Below are positions 29,727 through 37,065 of a stretch of 64,000 nucleotides of DNA, one piece after another; position 1 is the first letter of the stretch, and each line of letters begins with the position of its first letter. Location: positions 62,001 through 126,000 of the forward strand of contig NZ_BCWP01000004.1 of assembly GCF_001592265.1 (NCBI RefSeq). The letters are read 5' to 3'. The DNA comes from Curvibacter delicatus NBRC 14919. Lineage in GTDB: Bacteria; Pseudomonadota; Gammaproteobacteria; Burkholderiales; Burkholderiaceae_C. The position numbers were made by a program, and so were the translations under genes. The notes under the pieces are model-generated. The model was not told where the DNA came from. It did no database searches and saw only the letters and a list, made by a program, of their open reading frames with translations.

Positions 29727-30026
29727 GTGACAAAAACCACCCTGCTGGCCCTGGCCGTCCTGGCCTGGCCGGCACTGAACCTGGCGCAAAGTGCGCCGGA
29801 AAAAACCACCGCCGCCGCAGACCCTGCCGCGCCGGTGCCCGCCCTGCACTACCAGTCAGCCTTGGTCTACAGCCCACGCGGCGTGACACAGGGCACCGAT
29901 GACTGGGCGGCCGCCAACGCACGCGTTGGCCAGTTCGCACGCGGCCATGCCGACATCCTGAAAGCCGAGCAGGCGCAAGGGCAACCCGCCAAGCCCGATG
30001 CGCCAGCACCTGGAGCCCAACCATGA
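29727..30026 (+). CDS. Small exported hypothetical protein of the copper operon
   Basis: This 99-residue protein starts at a GTG with GGAG 8 bases upstream and has a signal peptide (about 1-21). The mature part is Ala/Pro-rich with a short conserved-looking core (HYQSALVYSPRGVTQGTDDW). Similar small proteins precede TolC-like genes in other Burkholderiales copper clusters, but no function is known. Its stop overlaps the next start (ATGA), indicating translational coupling to the TolC-like gene. Confidence 0.6.
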   Translation: MTKTTLLALAVLAWPALNLAQSAPEKTTAAADPAAPVPALHYQSALVYSPRGVTQGTDDWAAANARVGQFARGHADILKAEQAQGQPAKPDAPAPGAQP

Positions 30027-31447
30027 GCCGATCCTCTTTTCAGCGCGGCATCCCCATCGTGCTCTCGGCCGTGCTGCTGGCCGGCTGTGCCTCGCTCACG
30101 CCCGAGCAGAACCTGAACGACGTGCAGCAACTCACCGCAGGCCGCACGGCCGGCGCCAACGTCACCCTGCAGCGCAACACCCGCGAGATCGATGCAGCCG
30201 TGGCGGAGTTGCTCAAGGCCCCGCTGACGGCCGAGAGCGCGGTGCGCATCGCCCTGCTCAACAACCCGGGCCTGCACAGCGCGCTGGCGCAACTCGACAT
30301 CAGCGACGCCCAGCGTGTGCAGGCCGGGCGTGCACCCAACCCGCATGTCTCGGTGGCCGAATACGCCGAAGGCAGCAAGCTGGAAATCGAGCGCGTGCTG
30401 CGCTTTGACGTGGTCGGCCTGCTGTTCCTTCCCTGGAAGGCCCAATGGCAGGGCCAGCAGCACGAGCTGGCCAAGCTGCAGGCCGCACAGGAAGTCATCC
30501 GTTTGGCCACCGACACGCGCAAGGCCTGGATCAACGCCGTGGCGGCACAGCAGACAGTGGCTTACCTGGGCCAAGTGAAGGAAGCCGCCGAAGCCGGCGC
30601 TGAACTGGCGCGGCGCATGGCGCGCGTGGGCAACTGGAGCCGGTTGCAGCAGGCGCGCGAGCAGGTCTTCCTGGCCGATGCTGCGGCCCAACTGGCACGC
30701 GCGCAGCAAAGCGCCATGAGCGAGCGTGAAAAGCTCACCCGCCTGATGGGCCTTTGGGGCACACAGACGCAGTTCACCCTGGCACCGCGCCTGCCCGACC
30801 TGCCGCCGCAAGCGGCCGAGCTGCAGGACATGGAAGCGCGCGCCCTGCGCGAGCGGCTGGACGTGCGCTCGGCCGTGGCCGAAACCGGCTACGTGGCCAA
30901 CTCGCTGGGCATGACCAAGGCGGTCGGCTACCTCAATGGCCTGACGCTGGGCTACAAGAATGCCAGCATCAGCGACAACGTCGCCGGCAGCAATGACATC
31001 AAGCACGGCTGGGAGCTGGAGCTGCCGCTGCCCATCTTCGACTGGGGCACGGCGCGCAATGCACGTGCGCAGGCGCTGTACATGCAGTCGGCCACGCGCG
31101 TGCGCGACGTGGCGGTGAAGGCGCGTAGCGAGGCGCGCGAGGCGTACCACGGCTGGCGCACCGCCTACGACCTGGCGCGCCACTATCGCGACGAGGTGGT
31201 GCCGCTGCGCAAGGCCATCAGCGACGAAATGCTGCTGCGCTACAACGGCATGCTCGCCAGCGTGTGGGAGCTGCTGGGCGACATGCGCCAGCAGACGATG
31301 AGTGTGAACAACGCCATCGAAGCCCAGCGCGACTTCTGGCTGGCCGAGGCCGACCTGCAGCTGACGCTGACCGGTACTTCGCCCGGCCCTCTGACCCGCC
31401 CGCGCAGCAGTGGCGCATCGATGGCTTCTGCACCCCAAGGACACTGA
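30023..31447 (+). CDS. TolC-family outer-membrane lipoprotein
   Basis: This 474-residue protein has a lipoprotein signal with lipobox LAGC (about 18-22) and two long helical repeats of the outer-membrane efflux protein family (LLNNPGLHSALAQLDISDAQ near 78; DVRSAVAETGYVA near 287). It would form the outer-membrane channel of an efflux system. No RND or membrane-fusion genes sit next to it; the neighbours are periplasmic copper proteins, so it may serve copper export with a partner encoded elsewhere. Confidence 0.85.
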   Translation: MSRSSFQRGIPIVLSAVLLAGCASLTPEQNLNDVQQLTAGRTAGANVTLQRNTREIDAAVAELLKAPLTAESAVRIALLNNPGLHSALAQLDISDAQRVQAGRAPNPHVSVAEYAEGSKLEIERVLRFDVVGLLFLPWKAQWQGQQHELAKLQAAQEVIRLATDTRKAWINAVAAQQTVAYLGQVKEAAEAGAELARRMARVGNWSRLQQAREQVFLADAAAQLARAQQSAMSEREKLTRLMGLWGTQTQFTLAPRLPDLPPQAAELQDMEARALRERLDVRSAVAETGYVANSLGMTKAVGYLNGLTLGYKNASISDNVAGSNDIKHGWELELPLPIFDWGTARNARAQALYMQSATRVRDVAVKARSEAREAYHGWRTAYDLARHYRDEVVPLRKAISDEMLLRYNGMLASVWELLGDMRQQTMSVNNAIEAQRDFWLAEADLQLTLTGTSPGPLTRPRSSGASMASAPQGH

Positions 31448-31449
31448 AC

Positions 31450-32829
31450 ATGAATCGACGCAAATTTTTCGGTGGCGCTGCCATGACAGCCGTCGCGGCT
31501 GCCTCCGTCAGCAAGGTGGCCATGGCCGCCTTGCCCGAGCCGGTGGTGATGGACAAACCCGACACGGCGCCGCCGCTGCACCCGACGACGGGCCGGCCCT
31601 ACAACCCAGTGGTCACGCTCAACGGCTGGACCTTGCCCTGGCGCATGAACTAGGGCGTGAAGGAGTTCCACTTGGTGGCCGAACCGGTGGTGCGCGAAAT
31701 CGCCCCCGGCATGCGCGCCACACTGTGGGGCTACAACGGCCAGAGCCCCGGCCCCACCATCGAAGTGGTGGAAGGCGATCGTGTGCGCATCTTCGTCACC
31801 AACAAGCTGCCCGAGCACACCACCATCCACTGGCACGGCCAACGCCTGCCCAACGGCATGGACGGTGTGGGTGGCCTGACGCAGCCGCAGATCCCGGTCG
31901 GCAAGACCTTCGTCTACGAGTTCGTGGCGCGCCGGCCCGGCACCTTCATGTACCACCCGCATGCCGACGAGATGACACAGATGGCCATGGGCATGATGGG
32001 CTTCTGGGTCACGCACCCCAAGGGCCAGCATCCGCTCATCAGCGAGGTGCAGCGCGACTTCTGCTTCCTGCTCAATGCCTTCGACATCGAGCCCGGCAGC
32101 AGCACGCCGAAGGTCAACACCATGCTGGACTTCAACCTCTGGACCTGGAACAGCCGCGCCTTCCCCGGCATCGACTCGCTCAACGTGCGGCTGGGCGACA
32201 AGGTGCGCATCCGCGTCGGCAACCTGACCATGACCAACCACCCCATCCACCTGCACGGCCACGAATTCAGCGTGACCGGCAGCGACGGCGGACCCTGGCC
32301 GCTGGCCGCGCGCGTGCCGGAGGTGACGACCGACATCGGCGTCGGCCAGATGCGGCAGGTCGAGTTCGTGGCGGACGAGGAAGGCGACTGGGCGTTCCAC
32401 TGCCACAAGAGCCACCACACCATGAACCCGATGGGCCACGCCGTGCCGACCATGATCGGCGTCGACCACCGCGGTCTGGTACAGAAGATCCAGAAACTGG
32501 TGCCCGACTACATGGTGATGGGCGAACGCGGCATGGCCGACATGGGTGAGATGGAAATGCCCATTCCCGACAACACCCTGCCCATGATGACCGGCGCCGG
32601 CCCCTACGGCCCGCTCGAGATGGGTGGCATGTTCACCACCGTGAAGGTGCGCAAGACCCAGAAGCCCGGTGACTACCGAGACCCGGGCTGGTTCAAGCAG
32701 CCGGCCGGCACCCGGGCCTACGAGTGGGGTGCCACCCTGCCCGAACCCAAACGCCAGACGACCCCGGCCGCCAGCACGGCACCCGCCGAATTCAAGGCGG
32801 TCAAACCCCATTCACATTCAGAGCACTGA
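31450..32829 (+). pseudogene. Multicopper oxidase (CopA-like) interrupted by an in-frame amber codon
   Basis: Read through, this is a 459-residue multicopper oxidase with a Tat signal (NRRKFFGG) and all four copper motifs: HWHG, YHPHAD, HPIHLHGHEF and HCHKSHHTMNP. A TAG at 31651-31653 (codon 68) breaks the frame between TLPWRMN and GVKEFHLVAEP, with no frameshift; both sides read as one family-like protein. A GTG at 31657 could restart translation but the product would lack the export signal. A single base change from AAG, CAG or GAG, or a sequencing error, would explain it. In intact form it would oxidise Cu(I) in the periplasm. Confidence 0.88.
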
Positions 32830-32837
32830 GGAACACC

Positions 32838-33950
32838 ATGAATGCTATCAAATTCATAGCTATTTGCGCATTATTGACGGGGGCCAACGCCTCGTTTGGC
32901 CATGAACCCCGACACGGGCAGCCGATGCACGCGGCAGCAGAGCAAAAACCCTGGGGCATCGCCGGCGAGACCAAGGCCGTCACGCGCACCATCACCCTCC
33001 GCATGTCGGACACCATGCGCTTCACGCCCGCGCGCATCGAGGTGAAGGAAGGCGAGACCGTGCGCCTGGCCTTGCGCAACACCGGCAAGGTGCAACACGA
33101 GCTGGTGCTCGGCACGCCGCAGGAACTGGCGGAACACGCAGTCCTAATGCAGAAGCACCCGGGCATGGAACACGACGAGCCGCACATGGTGCACGTGGCA
33201 CCGGGCAAGACCGGCCACCTGGTCTGGACCTTCAACCGGGCCGGCGACTTCGAATTCGCCTGCCTGATCGACGGCCACTACCAGGCCGGCATGAAGGGCA
33301 CGATCCGCGTTCTCGCTTCGAAGGCGGGCAAGAACAAACCGGCCACCCCACCCGCCGCGGCCGTGCCCCAACCTGTCATCCATGGCATGCAGCACGGCAT
33401 GCACGGCGGCATGTCGAGTGGCATGCACAGCCAACCCTACGCCGGCCAGCAGCAACGCGAGATCAAGGCGCTGTCCGATGACGACATGAAAGCCTATCAA
33501 CATGGCCAGGGCCACGGCTTTGCCAAGGCAGCCGAACTCAATGGCTACCCCGGCCCCCTGCACACGCTGGAGCTGGCCAGCGAACTGAAGCTGAGCGACG
33601 AACAGCGCACCCAATCGCAGGCGCTGCTGACGCAGCACAAGGCCGAGGCGCGCCGCCTGGGCGCCGAGTTGATCGAGGCCGAGCGCGCGCTCGACCAGGC
33701 CTTTGCCAACCACAGCATCAACCCCGATTTGCTGAACCAGCTCACCCGCACGGCTGGCGAGAAACTGGCACAGTTGCGCGCGGAACATCTGCAAACCCAT
33801 CTGGCGCAAGCCGCCCTGCTGACGCCACAGCAGATCGAGCGCTACCAGACGCTGCGCGGCTACGGCAGCGCCATGCCGATGCACCCGGGCAAACAGCACA
33901 ACATGCAACACCACCCCATGATGGAGATGAACCATGGTCAACACCACTGA
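32838..33950 (+). CDS. CopI-like cupredoxin fused to a Spy/CpxP-like metal-resistance domain
   Basis: This 370-residue exported protein has a signal peptide (about 1-20) and a cupredoxin domain (about 45-155) with copper ligands His (KVQHELVLG) and Cys-His-Met (FACLIDGHYQAGM). A Met/His-rich linker (about 170-205) follows, then a helical domain (about 225-345: LKLSDEQRTQSQALL, LTPQQIERYQTL) like the LTXXQ/Spy/CpxP periplasmic metal-stress proteins, and a Met/His-rich tail. CopI-type proteins normally end after the cupredoxin, so this looks like a fusion. It overlaps the DUF411 gene by 17 bases. Confidence 0.85.
   Translation: MNAIKFIAICALLTGANASFGHEPRHGQPMHAAAEQKPWGIAGETKAVTRTITLRMSDTMRFTPARIEVKEGETVRLALRNTGKVQHELVLGTPQELAEHAVLMQKHPGMEHDEPHMVHVAPGKTGHLVWTFNRAGDFEFACLIDGHYQAGMKGTIRVLASKAGKNKPATPPAAAVPQPVIHGMQHGMHGGMSSGMHSQPYAGQQQREIKALSDDDMKAYQHGQGHGFAKAAELNGYPGPLHTLELASELKLSDEQRTQSQALLTQHKAEARRLGAELIEAERALDQAFANHSINPDLLNQLTRTAGEKLAQLRAEHLQTHLAQAALLTPQQIERYQTLRGYGSAMPMHPGKQHNMQHHPMMEMNHGQHH
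32842..32870 (+). repeat. Short palindromic Comamonadaceae-type repeat, copy 2
   Basis: The core reads GCTATCAAATTCATAGC followed by TATTTGCGCA. It encodes part of the signal peptide (NAIKFIAICA) of the cupredoxin fusion protein, starting 4 bases after the A of the start codon. The arms GCTAT and ATAGC are perfectly complementary. Confidence 0.7.
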
Positions 33951-34428
33951 ACACCTGCGCCGCCGCACACTGCTGCAAGGGGGCTTGGCCGCCGCGCTGG
34001 GCGCCCTGCCGCTGCTGGCCCGCAGCGCCACCGGCAGCCAACCCGTGATCGAGGTCTGGAAAACGCCCACCTGCGGCTGCTGCCACGACTGGATCCGGCA
34101 CCTGCAAAGCAACGGCTACGAGGTGAAAACGCACGACGTCAGCGACGCCGCCAAGCGCGATTACCGCCAGCGCCTGGGCCTGGCCGACAAGTTCGGCTCC
34201 TGCCACACCGCGCTGGTAGGCGGCTACCTGCTCGAGGGCCATGTGCCGGCGCGCGACATCCAGCGCCTGCTGAAAGAGAAACCGCGTGCCCTGGGCCTGG
34301 CCGTGCCCGGCATGCCGGTGGGTTCTCCCGGCATGGACGGCCCCGAATACGGCGGCCGCAAAGACCCGTATGACGTGCTGCTGGTGCAGCGCAGCGGCAG
34401 CGCCTCCGTTTACCAGTCTTACCGTTGA
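33934..34428 (+). CDS. DUF411 metal-binding protein
   Basis: This 164-residue protein has a Tat-like signal (RRRTLLQGG, about 9-17) and the DUF411 signature TPTCGCCHDW (about 45-54), a later GSCHTALVGGYLLEGHVP, and the conserved ending DPYDVLLV. DUF411 proteins are exported, thioredoxin-like in look, and recur in copper and silver resistance clusters. It overlaps the cupredoxin fusion gene by 17 bases and is followed by a CusF-like gene 9 bases away. Confidence 0.9.
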   Translation: MVNTTEHLRRRTLLQGGLAAALGALPLLARSATGSQPVIEVWKTPTCGCCHDWIRHLQSNGYEVKTHDVSDAAKRDYRQRLGLADKFGSCHTALVGGYLLEGHVPARDIQRLLKEKPRALGLAVPGMPVGSPGMDGPEYGGRKDPYDVLLVQRSGSASVYQSYR

Positions 34429-34437
34429 AGGAACGCC

Positions 34438-34785
34438 ATGAAGATGAAAGCACACACCCTTGCCCTGAGCCTTGCTCTCTTGCTGGGCACTGGCCACGCC
34501 CTGGCGCAGAGCCAAGACAGCGGACATGACAGCCACCACACCACTGCCAGCAGCGCCAGCGACATGACAGAAGCCGAAGTGCGCAAGGTGGACAAGGCGG
34601 CGAAGAAGATCACGCTCAAGCATGGTCAGATCAAGAACCTTGACATGCCGCCCATGACCATGGTGTTCCAGGTGAAAGATGCAGCGCTGCTGGAGCAGGT
34701 ACAGGCCGGTGACAAGGTGCGCTTCACGGCCGACAAGGTGGGCGGCGCCTACCTCGTGCTCACCCTGGAGCCGGTGAAGAACTAG
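34438..34785 (+). CDS. CusF-like periplasmic copper-binding protein
   Basis: This 115-residue protein has a signal peptide (about 1-23), a His-rich start to the mature part (HDSHHTT) and the CusF barrel (EVRKVDKAAKKITLKHG, then DMPPMTMVFQV). The Met-x-Met pair of the CusF copper site is present. The Trp that caps Cu(I) in E. coli CusF is replaced by Met in this loop, as in many betaproteobacterial homologues. It is the last gene of the copper operon. Confidence 0.88.
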   Translation: MKMKAHTLALSLALLLGTGHALAQSQDSGHDSHHTTASSASDMTEAEVRKVDKAAKKITLKHGQIKNLDMPPMTMVFQVKDAALLEQVQAGDKVRFTADKVGGAYLVLTLEPVKN

Positions 34786-34796
34786 CGCACACCGCG

Positions 34797-35885
34797 CTAG
34801 AACAGGCAACCCTGCCCCGCCGCCAGGCCGGGGCGGAACTGCGACAGATCCAGCGCCAGACGCTCGCGGTTCAGGCTGTGGCGGGCACAGGCCTTGTGAA
34901 AGCGCTGGTGGATCAGCTCCGACCACAGGCCGCTGCCGGTCATGCGGGTGGCAAAGTTGCTGTCGTAGTCCTGGCCGCCGCGCATCTCGCGGACGCGCGC
35001 CATCACGCGCGCCGCGCGCTGTGGGTAGTGCACGGCCAGCCACTGCTGGAACACCTCGTTCAGCTCCCACGGCAGGCGCAGCACGGTGTAGAAGGCGCTT
35101 TTCGCGCCGGCCGCGGCTGCCGCTTCCAGCACCTGCTCCATGTCGTCGTTGATGAAGGGGATCTGCGGCGCCACACTCACGCCCACCGGAACGCCGGCCT
35201 CGGCCAGTGTGCGGATGGTGCGCAGCCGTCGCTGCGGCGAGGCAGCGCGCGGCTCCAGCTGGCGCGCCAGTTCACCGTCGAGTGTGGTGATGGTGACGTA
35301 GATCGCCACCAGATGGTCGGCCGCCATCGGCGCGATCAGGTCCAGGTCGCGTTCCACGCCGCTGGACTTGGTAACGAGTGAAAACGGATGGCGCGCCTGC
35401 TGCAGCACCTCGATCAGCGAGCGCGTGATCTTCAGCTCGCGCTCCACCGGCTGATAGCAGTCGGTCACCGAGCCGATGACGATCATGCTCGGTCGATATG
35501 CGGGCCGCATCAATTCCTTGCGCAACAGCGCCGCCAGCCCCCGCTTGGCAATGATCACCGTCTCAAAGTCCAGCCCCGGCGACAGCCCGAGGTAGCTGTG
35601 CGTCGGCCGCGCATAGCAGTAACTGCAGCCGTGCTCGCAGCCGCGGTAGGGGTTGATGGAATAGTCGAAGGCAATGTCCGGCGAATCGTTGGCCATGATG
35701 GCGCTGCGCGCGTCCTCCCAGCGCACCTCGGTCTGCGGCTTGGTGGCCTCGCCCTGCAAGGTTTCATCCCAGGTCAACCAGCCATCGTCGAACGCCGCGC
35801 GTGCCTCTTGCTCGAAGCGGTGCGCCACACGCGCGGCCGCGCCGCGCCCCTTGAGGGCGGTCAACGGGAGGGTGAACTCGGCCAT
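34797..35885 (-). CDS. PA0069/SplB-like radical SAM protein
   Basis: This 362-residue protein has the radical SAM cluster motif C83-x3-C87-x2-C90 (GCEHGCSYCYAR) and the family's conserved SINPYRGCEHGC region and DFETVIIAKRGL. It belongs to the PA0069 branch related to spore photoproduct lyase, whose substrate is not established. The start MAEFTLPL leaves a 90-base leader that ends at a near-perfect LexA box (35976-35995), suggesting SOS control and a DNA-repair or damage-response role. Confidence 0.9.
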   Translation of the reverse strand: MAEFTLPLTALKGRGAAARVAHRFEQEARAAFDDGWLTWDETLQGEATKPQTEVRWEDARSAIMANDSPDIAFDYSINPYRGCEHGCSYCYARPTHSYLGLSPGLDFETVIIAKRGLAALLRKELMRPAYRPSMIVIGSVTDCYQPVERELKITRSLIEVLQQARHPFSLVTKSSGVERDLDLIAPMAADHLVAIYVTITTLDGELARQLEPRAASPQRRLRTIRTLAEAGVPVGVSVAPQIPFINDDMEQVLEAAAAAGAKSAFYTVLRLPWELNEVFQQWLAVHYPQRAARVMARVREMRGGQDYDSNFATRMTGSGLWSELIHQRFHKACARHSLNRERLALDLSQFRPGLAAGQGCLF

Positions 35886-35975
35886 GGCGTCACTGCAGGG
35901 GATGGCACGCGGTGGTCAGAGCCAGGCGATAGAGGTAGTGCGGGAAGGGGTGACCGGTTTTCATGGTTGCCTTGA

Positions 35976-35995
35976 TACTGTTTATTTGTACAGTA
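35976..35995. promoter_or_regulatory. LexA (SOS) box
   Basis: TACTGTTTATTTGTACAGTA contains CTG-N10-CAG with extended complementary flanks (TACTGT...ACAGTA), an almost ideal LexA operator. It lies 90 bases before the radical SAM gene on the minus strand and about 130 bases before the cupin gene on the plus strand. The radical SAM gene is the likelier target, because its PA0069 homologue in Pseudomonas aeruginosa is, as I recall, LexA-controlled. Confidence 0.8.
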
Positions 35996-36127
35996 TATCG
36001 ATCAACTTCCCAGGCAACAAGCCGGCTTCCAGAAGAGCCTGCGAATGATGACCAGCGTCAGGTCAGAGGCCATCGCAGGCGGCAGAATCCATACTTCCGG
36101 TTTTTACCGTTCGTCTCGCGAGGTCAC

Positions 36128-36619
36128 ATGTCAGACAGGCCAGAAAAGCAGCATCCCGTCGCCATCATGGCGACCGACGTCATGCCACGCAGCAAACCCT
36201 CGGCCTATCCCGAGCCCTTCGCCTCGCGCATGGCCGGCCGGGAGAAACGCCAGCTGGGCGATGTCTTCGGCCTCGGCAACTTTGGCGTCAACCTCACGCG
36301 TCTGGCACCCCACGCCACGTCGGCGCTTTGTCATGCGCACAGCCGGCAGGACGAGTTCATCTACATCCTGCAGGGGCGGCCGACGCTGCACACCGACGAA
36401 GGGCGAACCCAGCTGTCGCCCGGCATGTGCGCAGGGTTCAAGGCCGGCACAGGCAACGGGCACTGCCTGGTCAATGAGACTGGCGAGGAAGTGGTGTACC
36501 TTGAGGTGGGTGACCGGACACCGGGTGATGAAGTCAGCTACCCCGATGACGATCTCAAGGCCATGCTCGTCGCCGGGAAGTGGCAATTCGTCCACAAGGA
36601 CGGCACACCGTATGCATGA
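36128..36619 (+). CDS. Cupin-domain protein
   Basis: This 163-residue protein has a single cupin barrel: CHAHSRQDEFIYILQG gives the first metal motif with two His and a Glu, and GNGHCLVNETGEEVVYLEVG gives the second. Such small cupins are often annotated as transcriptional regulators without a DNA-binding domain, or as sugar isomerase-like proteins; neither can be claimed here. The start MSDRPEKQ is chosen for its distance to the cupin fold. No ribosome site is strong. Confidence 0.8.
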   Translation: MSDRPEKQHPVAIMATDVMPRSKPSAYPEPFASRMAGREKRQLGDVFGLGNFGVNLTRLAPHATSALCHAHSRQDEFIYILQGRPTLHTDEGRTQLSPGMCAGFKAGTGNGHCLVNETGEEVVYLEVGDRTPGDEVSYPDDDLKAMLVAGKWQFVHKDGTPYA

Positions 36620-36678: not shown

Positions 36679-37065
36679 ATGACCGTTCGCATCGTCCAAC
36701 TGGGCAGTGACCGTGCCGCCGACGAAGGCGTGCGCATCGGCACCGTGCGCCGCCCGCCACGCGGGGTCCCCAAGTCCGAGTTTGCGTCACAGAACTGGTA
36801 CGACGTCTGGTACCCCAACCTGGCGCCGAGTGTCGAGACCATGAAACTGGGACAACAGGCCGACACGCCGGCGCAGTGGGCTGCCTTCAGCAAGAAGTAC
36901 CGGGCCGAGATGGCCACGCCCGAGGCGACGCGCACGCTGGAGGTGCTTGCGGCCCTGTCTCACACCGGCAACTTTTCCGTTGGCTGCTATTGCGAAGACG
37001 AAGCCCACTGCCATCGCTCGGTACTTCGCGCCCTGCTGGCCGAAAAAGGTGCCAAGATCGGCTAG
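36679..37065 (+). CDS. DUF488 family protein
   Basis: This 128-residue protein has the DUF488 pattern: IGTVRRPPRGVP near the start, a central WYDVWYPNLAPS, and a C-terminal VGCYCEDEAHCHRSVLRALL whose Cys and His residues are conserved. GGAGAA lies about 10 bases before the ATG. The biochemical role of DUF488 is unknown. It sits in a run of small, loosely spaced plus-strand genes. Confidence 0.88.
   Translation: MTVRIVQLGSDRAADEGVRIGTVRRPPRGVPKSEFASQNWYDVWYPNLAPSVETMKLGQQADTPAQWAAFSKKYRAEMATPEATRTLEVLAALSHTGNFSVGCYCEDEAHCHRSVLRALLAEKGAKIG

Follow-up and report, generated by a model that had tools for sequence, protein, structure and literature searches.

A predicted LexA box precedes a PA0069-family radical SAM gene whose product has a spore photoproduct lyase-like predicted fold and belongs to a family that does not keep the lyase's fourth cysteine

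Radical SAM proteins that resemble spore photoproduct lyase (SPL) have been described as members of the SOS response. In a study from 2012, LexA sites were predicted before splB in alpha- and beta-Proteobacteria, with two divergent motifs being stressed, and in the available passages the gene is treated as an SPL homologue and linked to photoreactivation; Variovorax paradoxus is among the species in the table legend (PMC3323433). According to the accessible part of another paper, which has Cirz 2006 among its citations, the COG1533 protein SplB is SOS-regulated in several species (PMC8565304), and excerpts from a further one describe SplB-like radical SAM proteins as photolyases and assign them to SOS gene neighbourhoods (PMC3765255). 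A 'DNA repair photolyase SplB' is also listed, in the text available from a Pseudomonas fluorescens study, among the genes raised by tea polyphenol (PMC5435343). In short, the regulation is known in outline, and publications have taken the enzyme for a photolyase or for SPL. To our knowledge, the bacteria with the so-labelled enzyme make no spores.

SPL itself repairs 5-thyminyl-5,6-dihydrothymine, and residues outside the radical SAM cluster have been linked to its reaction. The excerpted text of PMC3742179 gives Y99 in Bacillus subtilis (Bs; Y98 in Gt) as the relay tyrosine, and C141 in B. subtilis (C140 in Gt), the fourth cysteine, as the suggested hydrogen donor. The C141A variant of the B. 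subtilis enzyme is described there as dead in spores, with an in vitro turnover of about 1/3 of the wild-type rate (PMC3742179).

The stretch of DNA analysed here (the window, 64 kb) contains a predicted LexA operator, TACTGTTTATTTGTACAGTA, before a radical SAM gene on the minus strand (Table 1). The box is a near-perfect palindrome that agrees with TACTGT-N8-ACAGTA at 12/12 positions (0 mismatches). An earlier note made from the same DNA had reported a box at 35976-35995, 90 bases before the radical SAM start; the same letters were found at these coordinates, and 90 nt lie between the box and the ATG at 35885. It is the sole site in the window with no more than 2/12 mismatches, where a mean of 0.25 such sites is expected from shuffled sequence.

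Table 1. Features around the predicted LexA operator (positions are those of the window)
Feature	Position	Strand	Basis
PA0069-family radical SAM gene, 362 aa	34797..35885	-	ORF, NF033668 match, alignment, fold
Leader ORF, 24 aa, lying between the box and the gene; 4 nt separate its stop from the ATG	35890..35964	-	
LexA operator (SOS box) TACTGTTTATTTGTACAGTA, predicted	35976..35995	.	palindrome match and orthologue conservation
TATACT, -10-like hexamer (5/6), overlaps box	35992..35997	-	by eye
TTGTTG, weak -35-like hexamer (3/6), 17 nt before the -10-like hexamer	36015..36020	-	by eye
Divergent cupin gene, start 132 nt from box	36128..36619	+	

The same motif is found at the genome's own SOS genes. 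The source assembly (G000) was scanned in full, that is, 3,755,761 bases (3.76 Mb) in 108 contigs, and exact TACTGT-N8-ACAGTA occurs in 2 places, against 0 for the reversed-pattern control. The assembly shows no enrichment of the looser core CTGT-N8-ACAG (14 places vs 20 for the reversed control), and sites with up to 2 mismatches to the full pattern are rarer than those of the control pattern (27 vs 74); because these looser levels show no over-representation, the signal is confined to near-perfect sites. Six sites have at most 1 mismatch, and they lie at the PA0069-family gene, lexA, two umuD-like genes, a comM-like gene and tnpB. The lexA box (1 mismatch) precedes the matched lexA frame by 58 nt. 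The other exact box (C22:68937-68956; locus L098, 2438-2457) lies between divergent SRAP and umuD-like genes, the latter encoding an S24 peptidase and running off the contig end, and a second S24-peptidase umuD-like gene has a 1-mismatch box. A further 1-mismatch box precedes the ChlI/Mg-chelatase comM-like gene (C34:21181-21200; locus L099); the available passages of PMC3323433 count comM of Caulobacter among SOS-regulated genes. The recA site is weaker, with 3 mismatches, 105 nt before the matched recA frame, so that the counts at the SOS genes are 1 (lexA), 0 and 1 (umuD-like) and 3 (recA).

Conservation of the box was assessed among close orthologues, defined as the best 80 of 586 relatives. 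By record titles these are mostly Comamonadaceae (12/80 titles name a broader or other group), and the nearest are Curvibacter at 93-94% identity; 79 were used, with L082 left out as it has no upstream DNA. A box with no more than 2/12 mismatches was found within about 400 nt upstream in 62/79 of these best relatives and in 2/1379 control windows, which were of the same size and drawn from the same loci; with up to 3 mismatches the figures are 74/79 and 18/1379. The best upstream site has 0, 1, 2, 3, 4 or 5 mismatches in 12, 22, 28, 12, 3 and 2 of the 79, respectively, counts that are not independent because the orthologues are related by descent. After the starts were adjusted, 72 of the 74 boxes with up to 3 mismatches are no more than 150 nt away from the start (control windows with a site at this mismatch level: 17/1158). 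The 74 include the 3-mismatch site of L069, which is G+C-rich and probably due to chance, and the other 5/79 of this best-80 sample have no box at this level. Most relatives have the box closer to the ATG than the window, where the distance is 90 nt. Alignment of the window with eight relatives shows the box preserved between diverging flanks.

Since the box is conserved upstream of close orthologues, we consider it real and tied to the radical SAM gene, and on these comparisons of sequence LexA/SOS control of the window's gene is very likely. It would be most improbable for the box to serve mainly the divergent cupin gene, or to be a palindrome that arose by chance and has no bearing on the radical SAM gene. 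In favour of such a reading, the box is symmetric, it lies 132 nt from the cupin start, and sites with up to 2 mismatches are fewer in the assembly than in the reversed control. Against it, the box accompanies the radical SAM gene in 74/79 of the best 80 relatives (up to 3 mismatches), and the neighbours of the gene are not conserved: the largest neighbour cluster covers 14/167 loci, in a test that clusters ORFs of at least 100 aa from flanks of unequal length and sets aside one cluster, read as the frame antisense to the PA0069-family gene itself. Chance was thus ruled out by the conservation among orthologues, and control of the cupin gene as the main role of the box by the change of neighbours among loci. 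The cupin gene could also be under the control of the box.

The putative promoter overlaps the box. A promoter scan called no sigma-70 promoter near the box. The ATACT part of the -10-like hexamer is kept in 7/8 aligned orthologues (the exception is L019), and 4 of its 5 bases are box bases. Between the box and the gene, a leader ORF is also present in L018 and L020, the window's two nearest relatives (24, 32 and 32 aa in the window, L018 and L020), and in all three 4 nt separate its stop from the ATG. The leader sequences differ among the three, so the ORF may reflect either coupling or chance. A terminator-like stem-loop on the plus strand, at 35947-35973, adjoins the box; with 1 found and 0.4 expected, it is possibly due to chance.

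The gene product belongs to the PA0069 family, with a score of 459.4 bits against the model NF033668 (rSAM_PA0069; cut-off 360), and it differs in no respect that we found from other proteins of that family. It is the one NF033668 match in the assembly. NF033668 is a hypothetical-equivalog model, to which no function is assigned, and the only Pfam matches on the protein are Radical_SAM and a sub-threshold DUF5131, which also argues against a light-dependent photolyase. The protein falls well short of the spore photoproduct lyase model TIGR04070 (19.7 bits, cut-off 400), which has no match in the assembly at E 0.001, and of the Rv2578c-family model NF038135 (211.2 bits, cut-off 430). The actinobacterial Rv2578c family is a distant relative: the stretch NPYxGCxHxCxYCxARxxH is common to the 4/4 members compared, whereas P146 and R213, both invariant in the PA0069 family, are replaced by Arg and Gly, respectively, in 4/4. 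A phage origin of the gene was considered and rejected, the phage matches being weak and partial (10/50,697 phage records, none over 80% of the query and all below 60% identity; 1 distant match among viral contigs), and nothing here indicates mobility.

The predicted fold resembles that of SPL. The structure was predicted from 64/81 close sequences, the window's own included, with a pLDDT of 78.4 and a pTM of 0.81, and is poor at residues 4-31, 39-49, 95-100 and 306-315. With this predicted structure, SPL entries are the best Foldseek match (E 2.8e-7), and VIA-align places them at Z 19.9-20.4 over 261-269 aligned residues with an rmsd of 3.0-3.8. The next fold family is pyruvate formate-lyase activating enzyme (Z 14.7), and among the matches listed the core fold is common to other radical SAM families at Z 12.6-14.7. 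A sequence search of solved structures gave a best E of 0.43 (a RiPP maturase) and chance-level PLD3 matches. What the protein has in common with SPL (TIGR04070; 4fhc and related) is CX3CX2C radical SAM chemistry and the closest predicted fold; what sets it apart is an identity of 15-16% over the aligned core, a score far below the model cut-off and the absence of an invariant hydrogen-donor cysteine.

The last of these differences was found by aligning 179 PA0069-family sequences: 81 close, 86 from the wider class and 12 plasmid-borne, the last including Aeromonas and Legionella. Four Rv2578c-type sequences, cut at the match start, were also taken in; L216, whose match is in two pieces, and one class locus, which fell at the length limit, were left out. 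The CX3CX2C motif (Cys83, Cys87 and Cys90) is invariant in 179/179 PA0069-family sequences, and none of them shares with all the others a cysteine outside this cluster. The best candidate for a fourth cysteine, residue 143, is Cys in 61/81 close, 4/86 wider-class and 0/12 plasmid-borne sequences, and in most other cases Ala, Pro or Gly. At residue 91, which was paired with the relay tyrosine by cluster offset alone, Tyr is found in 77/81, 40/86 and 3/12 and Phe in 4/81, 46/86 and 9/12 of the three sets. Among the residues that are fully or nearly invariant in the 179 sequences are Tyr80, His85, Tyr89, His96, Asp142, Gln145 and Glu148, which we regard as active-site candidates; Tyr144 is a further conserved position.

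The enzyme therefore has an SPL-like predicted fold, yet differs from SPL both in its score against the curated model and in the fourth cysteine. Because this hydrogen-donating cysteine is not kept, the SPL name does not fit the PA0069 family, and its absence suggests that this enzyme does not carry out the known reaction of SPL. That the gene encodes a true SPL under SOS control, as the labels 'splB' and 'photoreactivation' in print imply, is very unlikely. The best fold match of the predicted structure is indeed SPL, and LexA-controlled homologues are named splB in the passages available from PMC3323433, but a score of 19.7 bits against a cut-off of 400 speaks against this, as does the lack of an invariant cysteine beyond the cluster, when C141A inactivates B. 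subtilis SPL in spores according to the excerpts of PMC3742179, and so does the occurrence of either Tyr or Phe at residue 91 (the cluster-offset match to Y98 of Gt). A local role for the cysteine is conceivable in the window's own lineage, since residue 143 is mostly Cys there (61/81). The missing cysteine alone is no bar to lesion processing, because C141A turns over in vitro. Spores are not known to us in this lineage. The kinship to SPL claimed in the earlier note is supported by the predicted fold and not by the catalytic cysteine or the curated model.

The locus can now be set beside the published ones. With the splB of PMC3323433, as far as its available passages go, it has in common an SplB-like gene, predicted LexA control and the beta and alpha motifs; here the gene is of the PA0069 family (NF033668), in which the fourth cysteine of SPL is not kept. 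We infer that the splB of that study is this orthologue, and the box counts obtained here agree with the predictions in those passages. Such LexA control was already predicted in 2012 (PMC3323433, available passages) and is no new kind of regulation. With COG1533 SplB of Bacteroidetes and other groups, as described in the accessible part of PMC8565304, the common feature is a radical SAM gene in a LexA regulon, under other LexA motifs. What is added here is the caution that the SPL cysteine is missing from the enzyme of Proteobacteria, a point that we did not meet in the passages of these papers available to us. The LexA/SOS control proposed in the earlier note gains from both the conservation of the box and these reports, and stands as a computational prediction. 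Its statement that PA0069 was reported among the LexA-controlled genes of P. aeruginosa has indirect support only. In the literature searched, no paper pairs PA0069 with LexA or speaks of the 'PA0069 family' by name, and in one published study PA0069 is a chromosome tag site.

How far this control extends was examined in a draw of 274 genomes from the wider class, in which 89 have an NF033668 match over the cut-off. After the source assembly itself (G000) and G062, which is cut at a contig end, were left out, 87 loci were used. A box with up to 2 mismatches occurs in 8/87 loci and in 5/709 control windows, and the exact core within 230 nt in 9/86 loci and 1/1582 controls. LexA control is thus scattered across the wider class. 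Loosely defined boxes are found in 14/43 genomes whose LexA scores at least 195 bits and in 1/36 others (Fisher p 0.001, with the 195-bit line chosen after the scores were seen and 8/87 genomes left out of the LexA search); 3 of these 15 boxes (L139, L160 and L191) look weak and may be due to chance. The remaining 29/43 genomes with a high-scoring LexA (at least 195 bits) have no box. Four other LexA motifs were sought before the wider-class genes: GTTC-N7-GTTC (0/86), GAAC-N4-GTTC (0/86), GAAC-N7-GAAC (1/86 vs 6/1582 controls) and TTAG-N6-TACTA (1/86 vs 0/1582 controls). With 0-1/86 for each, no general alternative operator was found in the wider class. Since most wider-class loci have no box, SOS control appears dispensable for the basic role of the enzyme, which weakens the case for dedicated damage repair.

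A different LexA motif accompanies the gene in Alphaproteobacteria. Plasmid records that cover at least 80% of the query number 26, and half of them (13) were used, chosen by genus before upstream inspection; 11/13 are alphaproteobacterial, with four genera present twice, and 4 actinobacterial records were added. With 'upstream' counted from the match start and not from a checked start codon, exact GTTC-N7-GTTC precedes 9/11 alphaproteobacterial orthologues and occurs in 0/121 control windows; the two misses are Methylobacterium bullatum (2 mismatches) and Pseudorhodobacter turbinis (1). In the Aeromonas caviae record, an exact CTGT-N8-ACAG precedes the match by 15 nt, and the Legionella adelaidensis record has no CTGT-N8-ACAG site within 2 mismatches. 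For the actinobacterial Rv2578c-type genes, a 1-mismatch CGAAC-N4-GTTCG was found in 3/4 upstreams and in 3/121 control windows; this lead is weak because the control windows were alphaproteobacterial. That the gene recurs under different LexA motifs suggests a need for the enzyme in cells with damaged DNA. As a separate observation, the PA0069-family gene on the L. adelaidensis plasmid (L220) is divergent from a gene for DNA polymerase/3'-5' exonuclease PolX, a repair-type neighbour.

LexA cleavage and the radical SAM steps are established for those families, and a sequence of events at the window's locus can be proposed from them. The genome's LexA repressor would sit on the box, over the likely promoter (TATACT on the gene's strand). 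Upon DNA damage, RecA would trigger the self-cleavage of LexA, and the PA0069-family gene would be derepressed. The enzyme would then probably aim its 5'-deoxyadenosyl radical at damaged DNA or at a damaged nucleotide. A DNA lesion is suggested as the substrate by the SOS control together with the fold, and it is on this basis that we infer the label 'repair enzyme' for the protein. As the PA0069 family does not keep the fourth cysteine, both the substrate and the quenching of the radical would differ from those of SPL. With moderate confidence, we favour a LexA-operated, damage-induced radical SAM enzyme with an SPL-like fold that acts on a DNA lesion or damaged nucleotide by a non-SPL route.

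LexA might instead control the gene of an enzyme that modifies RNA, protein or a small molecule to the benefit of stressed cells and does not act on DNA lesions. We regard this as rather unlikely, though it has several points to its credit: in most class members the gene is present and no box can be recognised before it, the hypothetical-equivalog model NF033668 assigns no function, the SPL cysteine is not kept, and the core fold is common to other radical SAM families (Z 12.6-14.7 among the matches listed). Two points speak against it: the predicted fold matches a DNA-repair enzyme well above the other families (Z 20 vs 15), and SOS control under two unrelated LexA motifs ties the gene to DNA damage. 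Returning to action on a DNA lesion, a broader proposal is that the PA0069 family consists of distinct damage-induced DNA-repair enzymes that reverse lesions (photoproducts, base adducts or crosslinks) through radical chemistry that dispenses with the Cys-Tyr relay of SPL, and that they came under SOS control through separate LexA motifs, those of alpha and beta/gamma type, with the actinobacterial motif as a weak lead. This proposal is speculative, and we put it forward tentatively. Once found, the substrate would reveal either a lesion-reversal reaction not known before or a further branch of the SOS response. The Comamonadaceae, in which the box is nearly universal in this sample (the best 80 of 586 relatives), offer a convenient group for testing this.

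Several minor observations concern the surroundings of the locus and of one other box. In the window, plus-strand genes at 30023-34785 read from their translations like a copper-resistance cluster, with products that we take to be an outer-membrane efflux protein, a multicopper oxidase, a cupredoxin-like protein and a DUF411-like protein. A protein of the DUF488-N3a 'active subclade' is encoded at 36679-37065, adjoining the cupin gene. Elsewhere in the source assembly (G000), the 1-mismatch box of tnpB, TACTGTTAATATATCCAGTA, lies at C13:48476-48495 (locus L225, 1501-1520), and its last base is the A of the tnpB ATG. The tnpB product has OrfB_IS605 and Cas12f1-like TNB domains, and it is possible that this nuclease is under SOS control.
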